Origin: Solirubrobacter pauli
GTDB lineage: Bacteria > Actinomycetota > Thermoleophilia > Solirubrobacterales > Solirubrobacteraceae
NCBI RefSeq assembly: GCF_003633755.1
Contig: NZ_RBIL01000002.1
Coordinates: forward strand, 1,302,001 to 1,366,000
Direction: 5' to 3'
DNA: 64,000 nt
The notes below the pieces were generated by a model. It had not been told where the DNA came from, searched no databases, and saw only the letters and a program-made list of their open reading frames with translations. The number at the start of each line of letters is the position of its first letter. Positions within the stretch are counted from its first letter, which is position 1. A program made the position numbers and the translations under genes. Below are positions 25,094 to 34,529 of the stretch, piece by piece.

Positions 25094-25918
25094 ATGCTGG
25101 CGACGGGGACAGCGCTGCTGGCGCGCGACGGCGCGGCCGTGGCGGCGATCACGACGTACACGCTGGAGTCCACCCGCGCGATCGTGCTCGCGGCCGAGCG
25201 GCTCGGCCGCCCCGTGATCCTGCAGGCGGGTGCGAGCTCGTTCGGCGCCGTCGGCCGCGAGCCGCTCGCCGCCGCGGCGCTCGCGTCGGCCCGCGCCGCA
25301 TCGGTCCCGGTCGGCGTCCACCTCGACCACTGCCGCAGCGTCGAGGAGATCGAGGCGTGCATCGAGCTCGGCTACAGCTCGGTCATGATCGACGGCTCGC
25401 ACGAGGACTTCGAGGCCAACGTCGCGGTCACGCGGCGGGTCGTGGAGCGGGCGCACGAAGCGGGCGTGTGGGTGGAGGCCGAGCTGGGCGCGCTCGCCGG
25501 CGACGAGGACGTTTCCAGCGACACCGACCACGAGGACGGCGCGATGACCGATCCCGCGCAGGCGGCCGAGTTCGTCGAGCGCACGGGCGTCGACGCGCTC
25601 GCCGTGGCGATCGGCAACGTGCACGGCTTCACGCCGCGGCCCGTCCGCCTCGATCTGGACCACCTGGCGAAGATCGCGGCGGCGACGCCGGTCCCGCTCG
25701 TGCTGCACGGAGCGTCCGGCCTGCCCGACGAGGACCTGCTGGGCGCGGTCGAGCGCGGCGTCGTGAAGGTCAACGTGAACGCCGAGCTGCGGCGCGCGCA
25801 CATCGGCGCGCTGACCGCCGACGTCGGCGACGACGTGCGCAAGCTCCAGCAGCTCGCGATCGACGCGATGACCGCCGTCGCCGCCGAGAAGATCGAGCTG
25901 CTCGCGCGGCGGTCGTAG
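25094..25918 (+). CDS. Class II fructose/tagatose-bisphosphate-type aldolase
   Basis: 274 residues. Class II aldolase signature residues are present: HLDHC (zinc His and catalytic Asp, about 76-80), MIDGSH, VEAELG, IGNVHG and VLHGASG (zinc His residues) and KVNVNAELR (phosphate binding). It resembles GatY/KbaY-type enzymes, which cleave a ketose bisphosphate to dihydroxyacetone phosphate plus an aldehyde. The ATG immediately follows the TAG of the kinase gene (no gap), so the two are coupled. The phosphorylated product of the kinase is the likely substrate. Confidence 0.9.
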   Translation: MLATGTALLARDGAAVAAITTYTLESTRAIVLAAERLGRPVILQAGASSFGAVGREPLAAAALASARAASVPVGVHLDHCRSVEEIEACIELGYSSVMIDGSHEDFEANVAVTRRVVERAHEAGVWVEAELGALAGDEDVSSDTDHEDGAMTDPAQAAEFVERTGVDALAVAIGNVHGFTPRPVRLDLDHLAKIAAATPVPLVLHGASGLPDEDLLGAVERGVVKVNVNAELRRAHIGALTADVGDDVRKLQQLAIDAMTAVAAEKIELLARRS

Positions 25919-25929
25919 GCTTCCCCCGC

Positions 25930-27027
25930 ATCGCGGACCTGCAGGACATCGTCGACGATCTCGAAGCGGAGCTGCTGCGACCGATCTCGGTCGAGGACCG
26001 CCGCTGGCGGCTGCTCGCCCACAGCGCGCAGCCCGACGAGACCGATCCCGTCCGCCGCAGCTCGATCCTGACCCGCGAGACCGCGCCCGAGGTCGCCGCC
26101 TGGCTCGAGGGGCTCGGCCTCCAGCGGGCGCGCGAGCTCGTCGACCTGCCGGAGAACCCGGCGCTCGGGATGACCCAGCGCGCGGTGCTGCCGATCCGCC
26201 ACGGCGACGTCCTCCTCGGCTTCCTCTGGGTGATCGTCGGCGAGCGCGAGCTGACCGACGACGACCGCGCCGCGATCACCCGCGGCGGCGCCCAGGTGGC
26301 CGACAACCTGTGGGGCCGCCTGCGCGAGATCGACGAGCGTCGCGGCCGCATCAACGCGCTGCTCGGCCGCGCCCTGGCCGGCGAGGACGTGGCCGCCGAC
26401 CTGGCCGCGACCCTGCGCTGGCCGCCGACCGGCTCGTTCGCCGTGGCCGTCTCCCGCGGCGGTGACGAGGTCCCCGAGCGCCTGCGGCGCCGCCGCGGCG
26501 CGGCCGACTACGCCTGGCTCGCCGACGAGGACCGCGTGGTGATCCTCGCCCGCGACCCCACGGCGACGCTCGCCGACGAGCTCGCGACCGCCGGCGCCAC
26601 CGGCGGCCTCTGCACGTTCACCGCGCTGTCCGGTCTCACGGAAGCGCTTCGCCACGCCGAGATCGCGGCGTTGTGCGCCCGTGCCGAGCCCGCGCTCGGG
26701 CCGGTCGCGGCGTGGGGACGGCTCGGCAGCTGGGGCATCGTCGCGGACCTGTGGACCTCGGCGGGGCGGCCGCTGCCGGTCTCGCCGCTGCTCGGCCTCA
26801 CGACCCATCGTCGCGCCGACCAGCTGTTCGAGGCGCTCACCGCCTTCCTCGACACCGGCGGGGACGTCGCGGCGGCGGCCAAGGCGCTCCACCTGCACCG
26901 CGCGTCGCTCTACCGGCGCATCCAGCGCATCGAGGAGGCCACCGGCCTCGACTTCTCCCGCGGCGACGACCTCCTCACCGCGCACCTCGGCCTTCGCCTG
27001 CTCCGCCTCTACGAAGCGCGTTCCTGA
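25930..27027 (+). CDS. PucR/CdaR-family transcriptional regulator, probable ATC start
   Basis: About 365 residues. The N-terminal part (IADLQDIVDDLEAELLRPISVEDRRWRLLAHS) is the usual opening of PucR-type regulators, and the C-terminus holds the PucR/CdaR helix-turn-helix (AAKALHLHRASLYRRIQRIEEATGLD, about 318-343). There is no ATG, GTG or TTG near this point; the first in-frame ATG (26169) would delete about 80 conserved residues. An in-frame ATC at 25930 lies 8 nt after TAGGCT (25916-25921), matching the leaderless pattern of nearby genes. It probably controls the kinase-aldolase pair upstream. A CTG at 25939 is another option. Confidence 0.82.
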   Translation: MADLQDIVDDLEAELLRPISVEDRRWRLLAHSAQPDETDPVRRSSILTRETAPEVAAWLEGLGLQRARELVDLPENPALGMTQRAVLPIRHGDVLLGFLWVIVGERELTDDDRAAITRGGAQVADNLWGRLREIDERRGRINALLGRALAGEDVAADLAATLRWPPTGSFAVAVSRGGDEVPERLRRRRGAADYAWLADEDRVVILARDPTATLADELATAGATGGLCTFTALSGLTEALRHAEIAALCARAEPALGPVAAWGRLGSWGIVADLWTSAGRPLPVSPLLGLTTHRRADQLFEALTAFLDTGGDVAAAAKALHLHRASLYRRIQRIEEATGLDFSRGDDLLTAHLGLRLLRLYEARS

Positions 27028-27101
27028 AGAGGGACTGTCCCTCTTCAGCGACAGCTGTCGCGTGAAGGGGTCAGACCCCGACGCGCGACAGCTGTCGCGT
27101 G
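27025..27101. repeat. Cluster of nested palindromes (REP-like, terminator)
   Basis: Four palindromes in 77 nt. TGAAGAGGGAC-T-GTCCCTCTTCA (27025-27047) includes the pucR stop codon. GCGACAGCTGTCGC (27048-27061) follows, then GGGGTC-A-GACCCC (27067-27079) and CGCGACAGCTGTCGCG (27084-27099). The first and third are the symmetric type often seen in intergenic REP repeats. The cluster may terminate pucR transcription and is probably a dispersed genomic repeat. No transposase is nearby. Confidence 0.7.
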
Positions 27102-27133
27102 TTGCTCGGTGAAGACGCGACGGCGGGTACCCA

Positions 27134-28477
27134 ATGCGCATGGGCGAGAAGGCGACGATTCCCGGTATGGCCGCAACGACCCAAGAGCGCCCGCTGGACC
27201 TGGAGCGCCCCATCAAGGAGATCGGGACCGATCTCGCCGCGCGGATGCCGCGCCCGCGGCTCGTCTCGACCGCTCGGGTCGAGCAGCGCATGACCGAGCT
27301 GCTGATGAAGGACCCGGCGCTGCGCGCGGCGCTGTTCCGCTTCGTCGACGTGCGCCCCGCGTGCGCGACGCCCGCCGACCTCATCCGCCACCTGCACGAG
27401 TTCCTCGCGGACGCCGAGTCCAAGACCGCCCAGCGCGCGACCGGCATCACCGGCCGCCCGCTCGCCCGCCGTCCGCTCGCGGCGGTGGCCGGTGCTGGCG
27501 TCAAGCGGATGGCGCAGCAGTTCATCGTGGGGGAGGACGCCAAGGACGCGCTCCCCGAGATCACGAAGCTGTGGCGGGGCGGGGTCGAGACGACCGTCGA
27601 CCTGCTCGGCGAGGCGACCGTCTCCGAGACCGAGGCCGACGTCTACATGCGGCGCTGCGAGGAGACCCTCCGCGCGCTGGCCGGCGCCGCCACCAAGCCC
27701 GGCCAGGTGAACCTCTCGGTCAAGGTCTCCGCGCTCACGCCGCTGCTGCGCCCGACCGCGCCCGAGCGCGGCATCGAGGGCGCGCGCCCGCGGCTCGAGC
27801 ACCTGCTGCGCGTGGCCAAGGAGGTCGGCGCGCACCTGCACGTCGACATGGAGTCGTTCGACACGCGCGAGGCGATCACCGCGCTCACGCTCGACCTGCT
27901 CTCCCAGCCGGAGTTCGCCGACGGCCCGAGCGCGGGCATCGTGCTCCAGGCCTACCTCGTCGACTCGCCCGAGCACCTCGACGAGCTGCTCGCGTGGGCC
28001 GAGCGCACGCCCCGCACGCACCCGTTCGTGATCCGCCTGGTCAAAGGCGCGTACTGGGACCATGAAGTGGTCCAGGCCGCGCAGAACGGCTGGGCGCCGC
28101 CGGTGTTCACCGACCGCCGCGAGTGCGACCGCAACTTCGAGGCGCTCAGCCGGCGCCTGATCGACGCCACGCCGACGGTCAAGGTCGCGATCGCCAGCCA
28201 CAACCTGCGGTCGATCTCGCACGCGGCGGCGTACGCGGACGCGCGCGGCGTCGGCAACGACGACCTCGAGTTCCAGATCCTCCGCGGCCTCGGCGACGAC
28301 ACGCAGGCCGCGATCGCCGCGACCGGCCGCCAGGTGCGCGCGTACTGCCCGGTCGGCGACCTCGTCGCGGGCATGGCCTACCTCGTGCGCCGCCTGCTCG
28401 AGAACACCGCCAACGACTCCTTCCTCGCCGCCCACGCCAGCGGCACCGACACCGCCGAGCTCCTCGAGGCCCCGTGA
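27134..28477 (+). CDS. pruB: Proline dehydrogenase
   Basis: 447 residues. FAD-dependent TIM-barrel enzyme that oxidises proline to pyrroline-5-carboxylate. Typical segments are VNLSVKVSAL, HVDMESFDTR, GIVLQAYLVDS, RLVKGAYWDHEV and KVAIASHNLRSI. The next gene encodes P5C dehydrogenase and overlaps the stop codon by one nucleotide, so two separate enzymes do what PutA does as a fusion. Starts at 27134, 27140 and 27167 are all in frame; a TACCCA box makes 27140 plausible, and conservation begins after residue 20. Confidence 0.92.
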   Translation: MRMGEKATIPGMAATTQERPLDLERPIKEIGTDLAARMPRPRLVSTARVEQRMTELLMKDPALRAALFRFVDVRPACATPADLIRHLHEFLADAESKTAQRATGITGRPLARRPLAAVAGAGVKRMAQQFIVGEDAKDALPEITKLWRGGVETTVDLLGEATVSETEADVYMRRCEETLRALAGAATKPGQVNLSVKVSALTPLLRPTAPERGIEGARPRLEHLLRVAKEVGAHLHVDMESFDTREAITALTLDLLSQPEFADGPSAGIVLQAYLVDSPEHLDELLAWAERTPRTHPFVIRLVKGAYWDHEVVQAAQNGWAPPVFTDRRECDRNFEALSRRLIDATPTVKVAIASHNLRSISHAAAYADARGVGNDDLEFQILRGLGDDTQAAIAATGRQVRAYCPVGDLVAGMAYLVRRLLENTANDSFLAAHASGTDTAELLEAP

Positions 28478-30021
28478 TGAACACCTTCCGCAACGAGCCC
28501 CTCCTCGAGCTGCGCCGCGGCACCGTCCGCGACGAGGCCCTCGCCGCGCTGAGCGCCCTCGACGCCAAGCTCCCGCTCGACGTGCCGATGTTGATCGGCG
28601 AGGACGTCGTGCACGGCCAGGTGTTCGCGTCCGTGGACCCGAGCGCCCCCGCCACGGTGGTCGCGAACGCGCACGCCGCGACCGCCCAGCACGTCGCCGA
28701 CGCCATCACGGCCGCCGAGCGTGGGCAGCGCACGTGGTCCCAGCGCCCGGCGAGTGAGCGCGCCGCCGCCCTGTCGCGCGCCGCCGGCATCCTGCGCAGC
28801 CGCCGCTTCGAGCTCGCCGCGCTCGCCGTCCGCGAGGCCGGCAAGCCCTGGGCCGAGGCCGACGGCGACGTGGCCGAGGCGATCGACTTCCTCGAGTACT
28901 ACGCCCAGGGCGCGCTCGCGCTCGACGGCGGCCGTCCCCTGATCCAGATGCCGGGCGAGCGCAACGCGATGCGCTACGTCGCCCGCGGCATCACCGGCGT
29001 GATCGCGCCGTGGAACTTCCCGCTGGCGATCGCCGCCGGGATGGTCTCCGCCGCGCTCGCGACCGGCAACGCGGTGATCCTCAAGCCGGCCGAGCAGGCG
29101 CCCGCGTGCGCGAAGGCCGTCGTCGACGCGCTGCACGCCGGCGGCGTCCCGCTCGAGGCGCTCAGCTTCCTTCCGGGCGGTGACGAGCCCGGCAAGGCGC
29201 TCGTCGCCGACCCGCGCATCCACACGATCGTCTTCACCGGCTCCTGCGCCGCGGGCCTGAACATCCTGCAGACGGCCAACACGTTCGTCCCCGGCCAGCG
29301 GCACATCAAGAAGGTCATCGCCGAGATGGGCGGCAAGAACGCCGTCATCGTCGACTCCGACGCCGATCTCGACGACGTCGTCCCCGGGCTGCTGAAGTCG
29401 GCGTTCGCGTTCGGCGGCCAGAAGTGCTCGGCGGCCTCGCGCGCGCTGATCCACAAGGCCGTCGCCGACGAGCTGGCCGAGCGCCTCGCGGGCGCGATCA
29501 GCACGCTCCGCGTCGGCCCCGCCGCGGACTTCGCCACCGACGTCCCGCCGGTGATCGACATCGCCGCCCAGCAGCGCATCCAGGGCTACATCGACAGCGC
29601 GAAGCCACTCGCCCAGGGCGACTCGCGCGACGACGGCTTCTACGTCGCCCCGACGCTGTTCCAGGGCCTGCCGACCGACCACAAGGTCATCCAGGAGGAG
29701 ATCTTCGGCCCGGTCCTGTCGCTGGAGACGGTCGAGAGCGTCGAGCACGCCTGCGAGCTCGTCGACCAGTCCGCGTTCGCCCTCACCGGCGGCCTCTTCA
29801 GCCGCTCCCCGCGCACGATCGAGTACGTCACCGAGCGCACGCCGGTCGGCAACCTCTACGTCAACCGTGAGATCACCGGCGCGATGGTCGGCCGCCAGCC
29901 GTTCGGCGGCGGGCGCCTCTCCGGCACCGGCCCCAAGGCGGGCGGCCCGGACTACCTGCTGCAGTTCGTCGAGGCCCGCGCAGTGAGCGAGAACACCGTG
30001 CGCCACGGCCTCGTCGTATAG
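28477..30021 (+). CDS. pruA: L-glutamate gamma-semialdehyde (P5C) dehydrogenase
   Basis: 514 residues of aldehyde dehydrogenase fold. The NAD-binding segment reads GVIAPWNFPLAIAAG; the catalytic Glu is in EMGGKNAVIV (about 283) and the nucleophile Cys in GGQKCSAASR (about 317). PFGGGRLSGTGPKAGGPDYL near the C-terminus is typical of P5C dehydrogenases. It completes proline breakdown to glutamate with the proline dehydrogenase upstream, whose TGA overlaps this ATG (TGATG). The open frame extends upstream but this start is fixed by coupling. Confidence 0.93.
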   Translation: MNTFRNEPLLELRRGTVRDEALAALSALDAKLPLDVPMLIGEDVVHGQVFASVDPSAPATVVANAHAATAQHVADAITAAERGQRTWSQRPASERAAALSRAAGILRSRRFELAALAVREAGKPWAEADGDVAEAIDFLEYYAQGALALDGGRPLIQMPGERNAMRYVARGITGVIAPWNFPLAIAAGMVSAALATGNAVILKPAEQAPACAKAVVDALHAGGVPLEALSFLPGGDEPGKALVADPRIHTIVFTGSCAAGLNILQTANTFVPGQRHIKKVIAEMGGKNAVIVDSDADLDDVVPGLLKSAFAFGGQKCSAASRALIHKAVADELAERLAGAISTLRVGPAADFATDVPPVIDIAAQQRIQGYIDSAKPLAQGDSRDDGFYVAPTLFQGLPTDHKVIQEEIFGPVLSLETVESVEHACELVDQSAFALTGGLFSRSPRTIEYVTERTPVGNLYVNREITGAMVGRQPFGGGRLSGTGPKAGGPDYLLQFVEARAVSENTVRHGLVV

Positions 30022-30024
30022 CCC

Positions 30025-30060
30025 GATCGGTCCGCGCGGCATGTTCGCGCGGTAACCGAT
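30025..30060 (+). terminator. Hairpin terminator after the proline operon
   Basis: CCGCGCG (30032-30038) / CGCGCGG (30046-30052) with a 7-nt loop, extended outward by ATCGGT / ACCGAT around a 2-nt bulge. It is followed by a weakly T-rich stretch. Confidence 0.6.
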
Positions 30061-30062
30061 TA

Positions 30063-30099
30063 TTGACCTTTGATGAGAGCCGGACATATGATCCGGCTC
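30063..30099 (+). promoter_or_regulatory. Promoter and candidate operator of the M14 carboxypeptidase
   Basis: TTGACC (30063-30068), an 18-nt spacer and TATGAT (30087-30092) form one of the best promoters in the window. A perfect inverted repeat GAGCCGGA-N7-TCCGGCTC (30077-30099) is centred on the -10 box and would be a natural repressor site. A leader of about 70 nt follows. Confidence 0.65.
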
Positions 30100-30169
30100 G
30101 TCGGGCCCTAGACGTTCGGAGGGGGGCGGGCTCGACCAATTGGGGGCTAATCGGGGATGGGGGGCAGGA

Positions 30170-32950
30170 ATGGCGCGTACGCGCAGCCGTTTGCTGGTGC
30201 TTGCCGCGTTGTCGGCGGGCGTGTTGGGCGGGAGCGCTCCGGCGTTCGCCAGCGGCACCGAAGACGGGACGGTGCGGGTGAAGCTCAAGGGCGCCGCGAT
30301 GCTGGCGGAGGCCCAGAACCGCGGGTTCGACCTCGACCACGGGCTCGAGCGGGTGCCGGACGGCATCGAGGCCAAGATGCACCTGACGAAGGAGCAGGAG
30401 CTCGAGCTGGTCGCGCTCGGCGGCGAGATCCTCGCTCCGGGCGAGGAGTTCCAGTGGGGCTTCGCGAAGGCGCAGATCGCCGCGGCCGACACGCTGCTGC
30501 GGCCGGCGGCGCCGACGGTGCGGATCGTCCGCGCCGACTACTTCACGACGAAGGGGCAGGGGTTCCTCTACGTCGAGGCGCGCACGACGCAGGGCGCGCA
30601 GACGACGCCGCTGGTGACGATGACGCTCGAGAACGACACCGGGGCGGGCACCGCCTTCGTCGCGCCACGGGCGATGAGCCGCTTCGTCGACTCGGGCGTC
30701 TACATGTTCCACCGCAACCAGTTCAAGGTGAGCTCGCGGCCGGACCAGATCCGCGTGACGTCGAGCACGGGCGGCGTGGCGGTCGGCAAGGTCTCGGACT
30801 GGTTGTCGGACGTGACGCCGCTCACCGCGGACCCGGAGTTCAAGTACGACTTCGTGGACGGCTACAAGACGCCGCAGCAGCTCTACGGCCGCTTCGACGA
30901 GATCGCGGAGCAGTACCCGGACATCGCCGAGGTCGTGCCGTTGCCGAACAAGACGAACGGCTACCAGCGCAAGGCGCAGGCGACGATCGGCTCGACCACG
31001 GGCACCGCGGCGAGCTCCGCCGTGGTCGTGAGCTCGGCCGCCTGGGGCCATGAGGGCGGCAACGGCATCACGGTCGAGATGGTCGACCGGCCGGGCGCGA
31101 ACCTCCCGCTCTCGGTGGAGGTCAGCGGCAAGGCCGTGAAGGTCAACCTGGCCAAGAACGCCGAGGGTGCGCTCGCCAGCACGGCCGCGCAGGTCGCCGA
31201 GGCGATCGAGGCCGGATCCCAGGGCCTGATCGACCGCGCGCACCCGTACCGGACGAGCACGGGCGCGGGCGTCGTGCCGGCCACGACGGCGCCGATCGTC
31301 CTCACCGACTTCCTCGACCAGAAGCGCACGGGCGCACCCGCGGGCGAGGTCCCGCGCGGCCCGTACACGATCCGGGCACTGCGGATCGGCAAGCACCGCG
31401 ACGGCAGCAAGCCGGGCGTGCTGATCCAGGCGTCCGACCACGCACGTGAGTGGGTGCCGATGACGATCACGCTCGAGACCGCCGAGCGGCTCGTGCACAA
31501 CTACAAGACCAACGCCGCGATCAAGGACATCCTCGACAACGTCGACGTGTTCCTGATCCCGGTCAACAACCCGGACGGCGCGAACTACTCGTTCTACAAC
31601 TTCGCGTCCCAGCGTAAGAACATGACCAACCACTGCCCGGACGCGACGGCCGATCCGGGCAACCGCAACTCGTGGGGCGTCGACCTGAACCGCAACTACC
31701 GCGTCGGCTCGGGCTTCGACGGCTACGACGGCGCGTCGTCGAGCTGCACGAGCGGCACCTATCAGGGCCCGGCCGAGCTGTCGGAGCCCGAGAGCAAGAA
31801 CTCGATCTGGCTCGCGGAGAACTTCCGCAACATCAAGTTCATGATGTCCGTGCACTCCAATGGCGGCCAGCTGTTCTGGCAGCCGGGCGCGTACATCGCC
31901 GACGGGCGGATCACCACGCCGCGGCCGCCGCTCGGGCACGAGTCGTTCTACTGGCAGTCGGCCAGCCGGATCCTGTCGCAGGTGCGGGCCACGCGACGCC
32001 AGACGGTCGTCACGCCGGAGAACGTCGGCGGCTCGTCCGACGTCCTGTACTCGTCCGCGGGCAACGTGCGCGAGGACATGTACTTCAACTACGGCATCTT
32101 CGCGTTCGGCTGGGAGGTCGGCGGGTCGGTCTACAACACCGAGACCGGCCAGTTCCAGGACGGCTCGTTCCAGCCCGACTGGGTCGGTTCGGAGAACCTG
32201 ATCAGCGGCCACGGCGAGACGCTCGAGTACGCGAACGGCATCATCGAGATGTTCCGGATCGCCGCTGACTTCGGCCGCGACAAGGCGCCCGCGACGTCCA
32301 CGCTGACGCCCGGCGGCCGCCAGTTCGACTCACCCACGGGCATGCGGTTCGAGACGAGCGAGCCGGCGACCGTCTACTACACGACGGACGGCAGCCGCCC
32401 GACCCTGCAGTCGCCGCGCTACAAGCAGACCGAGTTCCGCGAGGGCGGGGAGGAGCTGTGGATCGACAAGACCACGACTTTCAAGTGGTTCTCGGTCGAC
32501 GCGGCGGGCAACGTCGAGCCGGCGGGCTATGACCCGAACAACCCGGCGACGGCGGACAGCTACCGCTCGGCCACGGTGCAGATCGGCGAGAACGGCACCG
32601 TCGGCGGAACGGTCCCGGCGACGCTGAGCCTCGTGCTCGGCACGCCGGCGCGGTTCGCGCCGTTCGTGCCCGGCGTCGAGGACGACTACACCGCGTCCAC
32701 GACGGCCAAGGTCATCTCGACGGCCGGCGACGCCACGCTGTCCGTGGGCGACCCCGGCCACCTGGCCAACGGGGCGTTCTCGCTGCCCGAGCCGCTGCAG
32801 GTCCTGCTCTCGACGTCCACGTGGACGGCGCCGGTCGCGAACGACGACGTGACGATCACGTTCAAGCAGCACATCGGGCGCACCGCCCCGCTGCGGACCG
32901 GGACGTACAGCAAGACCCTGACGTTCACGTTGAGCACGACGACGCCGTAA
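30170..32950 (+). CDS. Secreted M14 zinc carboxypeptidase with sorting-like C-terminal domain
   Basis: 926 residues. Signal peptide (about 1-23), then a long N-terminal region and an M14 catalytic domain. The zinc motif HxxE is in SDHAREWV (His about 424, Glu about 427), substrate residues in GVDLNRNYRVG, the third zinc ligand in MSVHSNGG (about 561) and the catalytic Glu in GWEVGG (about 648). About 110 residues are inserted just before the HxxE motif. A chitobiase-type domain (YYTTDGSRPT, about 725-800) precedes the shared STTxP domain (811-926). GGCAGGA before ATG 30170 supports this start over an upstream TTG at 30140. Confidence 0.9.
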   Translation: MARTRSRLLVLAALSAGVLGGSAPAFASGTEDGTVRVKLKGAAMLAEAQNRGFDLDHGLERVPDGIEAKMHLTKEQELELVALGGEILAPGEEFQWGFAKAQIAAADTLLRPAAPTVRIVRADYFTTKGQGFLYVEARTTQGAQTTPLVTMTLENDTGAGTAFVAPRAMSRFVDSGVYMFHRNQFKVSSRPDQIRVTSSTGGVAVGKVSDWLSDVTPLTADPEFKYDFVDGYKTPQQLYGRFDEIAEQYPDIAEVVPLPNKTNGYQRKAQATIGSTTGTAASSAVVVSSAAWGHEGGNGITVEMVDRPGANLPLSVEVSGKAVKVNLAKNAEGALASTAAQVAEAIEAGSQGLIDRAHPYRTSTGAGVVPATTAPIVLTDFLDQKRTGAPAGEVPRGPYTIRALRIGKHRDGSKPGVLIQASDHAREWVPMTITLETAERLVHNYKTNAAIKDILDNVDVFLIPVNNPDGANYSFYNFASQRKNMTNHCPDATADPGNRNSWGVDLNRNYRVGSGFDGYDGASSSCTSGTYQGPAELSEPESKNSIWLAENFRNIKFMMSVHSNGGQLFWQPGAYIADGRITTPRPPLGHESFYWQSASRILSQVRATRRQTVVTPENVGGSSDVLYSSAGNVREDMYFNYGIFAFGWEVGGSVYNTETGQFQDGSFQPDWVGSENLISGHGETLEYANGIIEMFRIAADFGRDKAPATSTLTPGGRQFDSPTGMRFETSEPATVYYTTDGSRPTLQSPRYKQTEFREGGEELWIDKTTTFKWFSVDAAGNVEPAGYDPNNPATADSYRSATVQIGENGTVGGTVPATLSLVLGTPARFAPFVPGVEDDYTASTTAKVISTAGDATLSVGDPGHLANGAFSLPEPLQVLLSTSTWTAPVANDDVTITFKQHIGRTAPLRTGTYSKTLTFTLSTTTP
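32600..32947 (+). other. Shared C-terminal domain ('STTxP' domain), copy in the M14 carboxypeptidase
   Basis: Residues 811-926: opens VGGTVPATLSLVLG, contains FVPGVEDDYTAS and ISTAGDATLSVGDPGHLANGAF, ends RTGTYSKTLTFTLSTTTP at the stop codon. Closest relative in the window is the copy at 13851-14198. Confidence 0.8.
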
Positions 32951-32957
32951 CTCCAGG

Positions 32958-32982
32958 GCTGCCGCCCGATTGTCGGGCGGCA
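32958..32982 (+). terminator. Hairpin terminator after the M14 gene
   Basis: Perfect 11-bp stem CTGCCGCCCGA / TCGGGCGGCAG with a 3-nt loop, starting 7 nt after the stop codon. It is followed by the strong ribosome binding site of the next gene rather than by a U-tract. Confidence 0.65.
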
Positions 32983-33004
32983 GCGCAGGGAGGAGGGTGG
33001 CGTG

Positions 33005-33841
33005 ATGAGACGCCTCCCCACGCTCACCCTCCTCCTCGGGCTGACGCTCCTCGCGCCGTCGGCCGCACACGCGAACCGCGGCTACGGCGCGTTCGAGCCC
33101 TACGAGGACCTCGCGGTCGTCCAGACCAGCGACGACGGACGCGAGCTCCGCTCGCTCACGCTGCGCGTCCAGATGGCGTGCGACGACGACCGCACGTACG
33201 GCTGGGTCGCCGACGTGAAGGCCGCCCGCGGGGCGCTCAGCCCGAGCACGCGCGGACGCAACCGGCTCGTCGTCAAGCGCGGATCGCTGCACGGGAAGCT
33301 CGTCGGTCGGTTCGGCAATCGCCGCGACTACGCCGAGTACACAGGGAGGATCGTCGTGTCCGACGTGCGCGAGGACTCCGCCCGCGTGAAGGTCTCGCTG
33401 CTGCGCACGGAGCGCCTGGACCCGTCCGACCGCTGCCGCTTCGACGGCACGCTGCGCGCCGAGCGCGACCCCGGCACGCTGTACATCGGCGCCACGGACG
33501 ACGACGAGCCGGTGATCGTGCGTCGCCACGACGACGGGACCGGCGTCGAGTGGCTGTCGGGCTTCGGCACCGACTGCGACCCCGAGGGCTTCGTGCAGGG
33601 CATCCACACCGACGACCTCGGGCTGAGCCCCGACGACGACACGTTCGGCACCGAGGGGCTGGAGGCCGCCGGCACGTTCGATCCGTTCGGCACGGGCGAG
33701 TACGAGCGGTGGGTGGCGATCGGTGGCCGGCTCGAGGCCGACCGCGCCGCCGGCATCTTCCGGCTGGTCGCGAACGGCGACGGCGGCCCGGCCGAGACCT
33801 GCGACACCGCCATCCGCCGCTGGCGGGCGATCAGCTCCTAG
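33005..33841 (+). CDS. Secreted protein of unknown function
   Basis: 278 residues, not recognised. A signal peptide (about 1-23, ending AHA) is followed by a mature domain rich in Asp and Arg with three cysteines visible (MACDDD, DRCRF and TDCDPEGF) plus one near the end (AETCDT). No membrane anchor or catalytic motif was seen. A strong AGGGAGGAGGG site precedes GTG 33002 and ATG 33005; either could be the start. It ends one codon before the convergent VOC gene, with the stop codons overlapping by 4 nt. Confidence 0.7.
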   Translation: MRRLPTLTLLLGLTLLAPSAAHANRGYGAFEPYEDLAVVQTSDDGRELRSLTLRVQMACDDDRTYGWVADVKAARGALSPSTRGRNRLVVKRGSLHGKLVGRFGNRRDYAEYTGRIVVSDVREDSARVKVSLLRTERLDPSDRCRFDGTLRAERDPGTLYIGATDDDEPVIVRRHDDGTGVEWLSGFGTDCDPEGFVQGIHTDDLGLSPDDDTFGTEGLEAAGTFDPFGTGEYERWVAIGGRLEADRAAGIFRLVANGDGGPAETCDTAIRRWRAISS

Positions 33842-34224
33842 TTGGGGGAGTGGAGCTGGATCAGGTTCCCGCAGGTGTCGTCCAGCACCGCGGTGGTGAC
33901 CGGACCCATGTTCGTCGGGGCCTGCGTGAACGTGACGCCGAGCGCGGACAGCCGTTCGTGCTCGGCGTGCACGTCGTCGACCTCGAAGGACGTGAACGGG
34001 ATGCCGTCCTCGACCAGCGCCGCCTTGAACGGGCCGGCGGCCGGGTGCGCGTCGGGCTCGAGCGAGATCTCCGTGCCGCCCGGCTGCTCGGGCGATCCGA
34101 CCGTGAGCCACGCGTGCTCGCCCATCGGGATCTCGGTGCGCTTCTCGAAGCCGAGCACGTCGGTGTAGAACGCGAGCGCCTTCTTCTGGTCGTCGACCAG
34201 GACGCTCATCAGGGTGATCCTCAC
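33838..34224 (-). CDS. VOC (glyoxalase/bleomycin-resistance) family protein
   Basis: 128 residues of the vicinal-oxygen-chelate fold: RITLMSVLVDDQKKALAFYTDVLGFEKR at the start and DDTCGNLIQLHSP at the end, the usual C-terminal signature. Such proteins include metal-dependent dioxygenases, glyoxalases and resistance-type binding proteins; the specific role is unknown. Its GTG start overlaps the TGA of the ArsR-type regulator gene (GTGA), so it is translationally coupled and probably controlled by it. Confidence 0.87.
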   Translation of the reverse strand: MRITLMSVLVDDQKKALAFYTDVLGFEKRTEIPMGEHAWLTVGSPEQPGGTEISLEPDAHPAAGPFKAALVEDGIPFTSFEVDDVHAEHERLSALGVTFTQAPTNMGPVTTAVLDDTCGNLIQLHSPN

Positions 34225-34493
34225 TGCCGGGGCTCCTTCCAGCGCCGGACGATCTCGTCCAGGGGCGCCGTGTCGAGGTGGTGGAACTTGTACCGGCCGT
34301 CCCTGCGCGTGTTGACCAGCCCGGCCTGCTCGAGCACCTCGAGGTGCTGGGAGACCGCCTGGCGCGACATGCCCAGGCCCTTCGCGCTCAGCCGCGCGCA
34401 GATCTCGAAGAGCGTCTGGCCGTCGCGATCGGACAGCGCGTCGAGGATCGCTCGCCGCGCCGGGGCGGAGAGGGCGTGGAAGACGTCCGTGAT
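34221..34493 (-). CDS. ArsR-family transcriptional regulator, probable ATC start
   Basis: 90 residues. A winged helix-turn-helix: ITDVFHALSAPARRAILDALSD at the start, the recognition helix MSRQAVSQHLEVLEQAGLV and the wing TRRDGRYKFHHL. The frame has an upstream TAG and no ATG, GTG or TTG before the conserved region; the only fit is ATC at 34493, where homologs have Met. A TTGACA/TATGCT promoter places transcription start at or next to that ATC. It precedes and overlaps the VOC gene, which it probably regulates. No metal-binding cysteine motif was seen beyond EICARL, so the signal may not be a metal. Confidence 0.85.
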   Translation of the reverse strand: MTDVFHALSAPARRAILDALSDRDGQTLFEICARLSAKGLGMSRQAVSQHLEVLEQAGLVNTRRDGRYKFHHLDTAPLDEIVRRWKEPRQ

Positions 34494-34499
34494 GCACCC

Positions 34500-34529
34500 A
34501 GCATAGGCAAGTGGCTACTTGCCTGTCAA
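34500..34529 (-). promoter_or_regulatory. arsR promoter with embedded operator
   Basis: On the minus strand: TTGACA (34529-34524), an 18-nt spacer and TATGCT (34505-34500), then 6 nt to the ATC start. The whole spacer is an inverted repeat, GGCAAGT-N4-ACTTGCC (34506-34523), as expected for an autoregulating ArsR dimer. Confidence 0.75.

Follow-up and report, generated by a model that had tools for sequence, protein, structure and literature searches.

Two regulator genes with a predicted leaderless AUC start

In the present study, we analysed a 64 kb stretch of the Solirubrobacter pauli genome (contig NZ_RBIL01000002.1, positions 1,302,001 to 1,366,000; hereafter the window) and found two regulator genes, a pucR-type gene and an arsR gene, that probably start at an AUC codon without a leader. 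We estimate a probability of about 0.8 that both are real leaderless AUC starts, served by sigma-70-type promoters and the ordinary initiator tRNA and probably weak. The window genome (G000) comprises 7.1 Mb in 4 contigs. An earlier note on this DNA had pointed out that both genes lack ATG, GTG or TTG where their homologues start. Our re-reading agreed: no usable canonical codon was found at that site in either gene, and ATC, which occupies it, was the first codon aligning with the homologues in pucR (25930, + strand) and arsR (34493, - strand). The distance from the TANNNT box to the ATC was again read as 8 nucleotides (nt) in pucR and 6 nt in arsR. The features concerned were as follows.

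25930..27027, + strand: gene for a pucR-type regulator, 365 codons long when counted from the ATC, TGA stop at 27025-27027 (evidence: PF13556 and the substitution ratios below)
25930..25932, + strand: proposed start codon of pucR (ATC throughout the four species of the clade, TTG in G005)
25916..25921, + strand: TAGGCT -10 box of pucR, 8 nt before the ATC; its TAG also terminates the aldolase gene lying upstream
34226..34493, - strand: arsR regulator gene with ATC start, first in order and followed by a glyoxalase-family gene (PF12840/PF01022, NF033788)
34491..34493, - strand: proposed start codon of arsR (ATC throughout the four species of the clade, TTG in G060 and G002, GTG in G155 and G146)
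34500..34505, - strand: TATGCT -10 box of arsR, 6 nt before the ATC
34506..34523, - strand: putative palindromic operator GGCAAGTAGCCACTTGCC (GGCAAGT-AGCC-ACTTGCC), filling the 18-nt spacer between -35 and -10 and kept in congeners
34524..34529, - strand: TTGACA -35 box of arsR

Two such cases had been judged hard to ascribe to chance. From a TANNNT frequency of 2.5e-4 per position per strand, the probability that any given codon is preceded by such a box at 6-8 nt was put at p ~7.5e-4. When both strands of the window were searched for TANNNT-N6-9-ATH with a coding-like open reading frame of at least 50 codons and no nearby canonical start, only pucR and arsR were recovered.

Conservation of the ATC codon

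ATC was found at the same codon of both genes in four species, with no exception within the clade: the species of the window, S. phytolaccae (G003), S. taibaiensis (G004) and S. deserti (G001 and G006, two assemblies apparently of the same strain, CPCC 204708). The comparison with close relatives that the earlier note had proposed thus gave ATC at both genes in all three relatives. That note had also raised, as a general possibility, a G-to-C error in the assembly, by which an ATG would have been misread as ATC. Since separately sequenced species have kept the codon at both genes, a sequencing error was for practical purposes ruled out. Outside the clade, the site was occupied by TTG in the pucR of G005 and the arsR of G060 and G002, and by GTG in the arsR of G155 and G146, where the TTGACA-operator-TANNNT-6 nt layout was the same. 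The AUC start would descend from a TTG, GTG or ATG start in the ancestor of the four Solirubrobacter species.

In both genes, coding conservation set in at the ATC, and the residues upstream of it were not conserved. The ratio of nonsynonymous to synonymous substitution rates (dN/dS) among the four species was 0.20-0.43 for pucR and 0.17-0.29 for arsR, and codons 2-26 of pucR showed zero nonsynonymous and 1-5 synonymous changes per species pair. With dN/dS at 0.17-0.43 overall, purifying selection acts on both genes. An alternative is that, after loss of the start codon, the two genes have fallen silent or are degenerating in this clade. In E. coli, AUC works very poorly as a start codon, and expression from it could approach nil. 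However, the low dN/dS values, the full-length frames and the retention of promoter, operator and ATC in all four species argue against decay, which we consider quite improbable.

The start region of pucR

The C-terminal part of the pucR product matched the PucR helix-turn-helix profile PF13556 (63.9 bits, E 1.2e-17), and the gene is preceded by a class-II aldolase gene and followed by one for proline dehydrogenase (+ strand). The TAGGCT box was retained in 4/4 species, with a gap to the ATC of 8/7/7/6 nt, and in S. deserti it was retained despite a different upstream gene. Upstream of the ATC, the closest in-frame ATG, GTG or TTG in the window was a GTG at a distance of 154 codons, which lies in the aldolase gene; downstream, the first canonical start codon was codon 80. 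In S. deserti, an in-frame TAG four codons upstream of the ATC shuts the frame.

The start region of arsR

The arsR product fitted the ArsR winged helix (PF01022, 38.7 bits against a cut-off of 22) and the ArsR/SmtB model NF033788 (65.4 bits against a cut-off of 55). As the earlier note had stated, its frame is shut upstream by an in-frame TAG (34517-34515), which falls within the operator; the seven codons from this TAG to the ATC (CCA CTT GCC TAT GCT GGG TGC) include no start codon. The frame was shut 7-8 codons upstream in 4/4 species, by TAG or, in S. taibaiensis, TGA in the operator, with no NTG between. Downstream, no NTG was found within 40 codons after the ATC in any of the four species; the first canonical codon in the window is 41 codons distant and falls in that part of the helix-turn-helix which serves recognition. 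The operator palindrome of S. taibaiensis is present in two tandem copies.

Leaderless starts in the window genome

Codons located 6-9 nt after TANNNT were counted in 1.6 Mb of the window genome (G000:C2). ATG was found 164 times against 11 expected and GTG 91 times against 16 expected, and this strong enrichment indicated frequent use of leaderless starts by this organism. TTG was not enriched (4 against 7 expected); leaderless starts therefore look limited to RTG, the ATC cases apart. Canonical leaderless starts peaked 6-9 nt past TANNNT, a range that the gaps of pucR (8/7/7/6 nt) and arsR (6 nt) fit. Among 301 orthologue pairs compared with S. deserti, the shared leaderless starts comprised 33 ATG and 8 GTG, and pucR and arsR were the only convincing shared non-canonical ones.

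Evidence weighed against the leaderless AUC start

Several points weigh against the proposed starts. The pucR gene has no recognisable -35 box, and in 3/4 species its -10 box begins with a TAG that also ends the aldolase gene; the promoter call for pucR is weaker on both accounts. The ATC count after TANNNT was not enriched in the 1.6 Mb sample (2 against 0.9 expected from distant spacings), so each ATC case must rest on homology. Neither gene has the AUG or GUG with which a leaderless mRNA is expected to open; both have ATC instead. In addition, leaderless mRNAs of E. coli have been reported to require AUG (PMC4611024, PMC3898074), and weak third-base pairs are rejected by initiation factor 3 (IF3) in vitro (PMC10158994).

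Two observations speak for a start of translation elsewhere, with the ATC read as an internal Ile like any other: the pucR frame is stop-free for 30 codons upstream of the ATC in the window genome, S. phytolaccae and S. taibaiensis, and fused ArsR homologues of other genera have an in-frame ATG six codons upstream. Against an internal Ile codon stand the closed arsR frame of all four species, the TAG in the S. deserti pucR, the distance to the pucR GTG in the window, the unconserved upstream residues and the NTG of the nearest homologues at the ATC codon; we regard it as unlikely. Leaderless initiation at ATC, which the earlier note had suggested, was the only reading that fitted the closed frames, the promoter spacing, the TTG/GTG homologues and the purifying selection, and on these sequence features it is supported as the best explanation.

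Neighbouring genes

27134..28477, + strand: proline dehydrogenase gene, the likely target of pucR (PF01619, E 8.5e-80; PF18083, E 8.3e-22)
33838..34227, - strand: glyoxalase/VOC-family gene immediately following arsR and probably cotranscribed with it (PF00903, E 2.3e-19)

A palindrome cluster was observed 3' of pucR at 27029-27098, comprising GAGGGACTGTCCCTC, GGGGTCAGACCCC and two copies of GCGACAGCTGTCGC. Related palindromes recur elsewhere in the window genome and in S. deserti.

Further candidates

Thirty regulator loci of the window genome were inspected, a search biased to regulators, and two more leaderless ATC candidates were obtained.

G000:C2 ~2021972 (match 2021947-2022003), + strand: candidate MarR-family gene, TACATT-N6-ATC
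G000:C1:2994333-2994779, - strand: candidate Lrp/AsnC regulator gene, TTGCCT-N18-TAGCTT-N7-ATC, with ATC in one genome

The S. phytolaccae orthologue of the MarR gene (G003:C108:2829-2885) has TACAGT-N6-ATC at the same place. In the MarR candidate, an in-frame GTG lies 14 codons upstream of the ATC, ahead of the -10 box, so that a leadered start is possible. A paralogue of the Lrp/AsnC gene at C2:112691 carries GTG at the corresponding codon, and no conserved orthologue was found in congeners, which have only homologues of ~50% identity. The genus-wide pattern TTGAC-N17-19-TANNNT-N6-8-ATH recovered arsR, and among its other matches the 30 whose loci were read gave no convincing ATH start. A possible ATT start at G000:C2:1423471, shared with S. 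deserti, was discarded; its ATT overlaps a TTGAC -35 box and an ATG follows 13 codons on. The infC gene was rejected as a second non-canonical gene, having an ATG/GTG start in these genomes. An altered IF3 was likewise rejected, its alignment being unremarkable.

Proposed mechanism

The sigma-70-type promoters would place +1 at, or 1-2 bases from, the A of the ATC, so that the mRNAs would begin with AUC. This 5'-terminal codon would be used by the ribosome, probably as a 70S particle carrying formylmethionyl-tRNA (fMet-tRNA), which would pair with AUC despite a C:C mismatch at the third base and place Met at residue 1. AUC is a rare start in bacteria (PMC9094748). IF3 discriminates against starts that do not end in G and antagonises leaderless initiation, which may use 70S (PMC4611024). 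The third-base mismatch may be tolerated on the leaderless route because IF3 acts less there. The sequences themselves show the conservation, the lack of other starts, the promoter geometry and the purifying selection; the 5' end at the ATC, the decoding of AUC as Met, the involvement of 70S and IF3 and the weakness of the start are inferred. A special initiator tRNA with a GAU anticodon would also account for the use of AUC, giving proteins that begin with Ile or that start efficiently. However, the initiator-type anticodon arm GGGNNNATAACCC was found once in the genome, with CAU; no GAU initiator tRNA was found there, and those other pattern matches that were tested with ARAGORN were not tRNAs. 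We thus consider such a tRNA very improbable.

The weak AUC start would probably hold down autoregulated or low-dose regulators. All of the candidates (4/4) encode DNA-binding regulators, and the arsR operator lies between the -35 and -10 boxes; a dose-limiting weak start is therefore plausible, and the remark that such a start suits regulators gained circumstantial support. The broader proposal, that AUC is a regular and selected leaderless start of Solirubrobacter regulators (ArsR, PucR, MarR and Lrp) that keeps autoregulated ones scarce through escape from IF3, is tentative, and we place it slightly below even odds.

Relation to known systems and significance

The AUU starts of E. coli infC and pcnB are non-canonical bacterial starts discriminated by IF3. 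They share with pucR and arsR an AUN codon whose third base mismatches the CAU anticodon and, presumably, a low level of the gene. These AUN-start genes are leadered, whereas pucR and arsR are predicted to be leaderless and encode transcription regulators. E. coli lacI starts at GUG, a weak start codon on a regulator, and a study has reportedly dealt with non-canonical start codons of the lactose operon in this species. The inefficient start lowering the regulator level would be common to both systems; pucR and arsR differ by the AUC and the lack of a leader. The leaderless mRNAs of Actinobacteria (M. tuberculosis, Streptomyces) likewise have TANNNT 6-9 nt before the start and no leader, in many genes (PMC3898074, PMC8079986), but they start at ATG or GTG, which are used alike in M. 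tuberculosis (PMC3898074), whereas pucR and arsR would start at AUC. Both AUC starts and leaderless mRNAs have been described before; the novelty would lie in their conserved combination. No report of conserved leaderless AUC starts in bacteria was found in the literature searched, whose coverage left out most subscription journals.

If true, the conserved leaderless AUC would be at odds with the rule of AUG in E. coli or AUG/GUG in mycobacteria. Gene finders that consider ATG, GTG and TTG would miss or truncate genes with AUC starts. The 5'-terminal start signal would be looser in some bacteria than has been believed, and the finding would suggest a way of tuning regulator dose.
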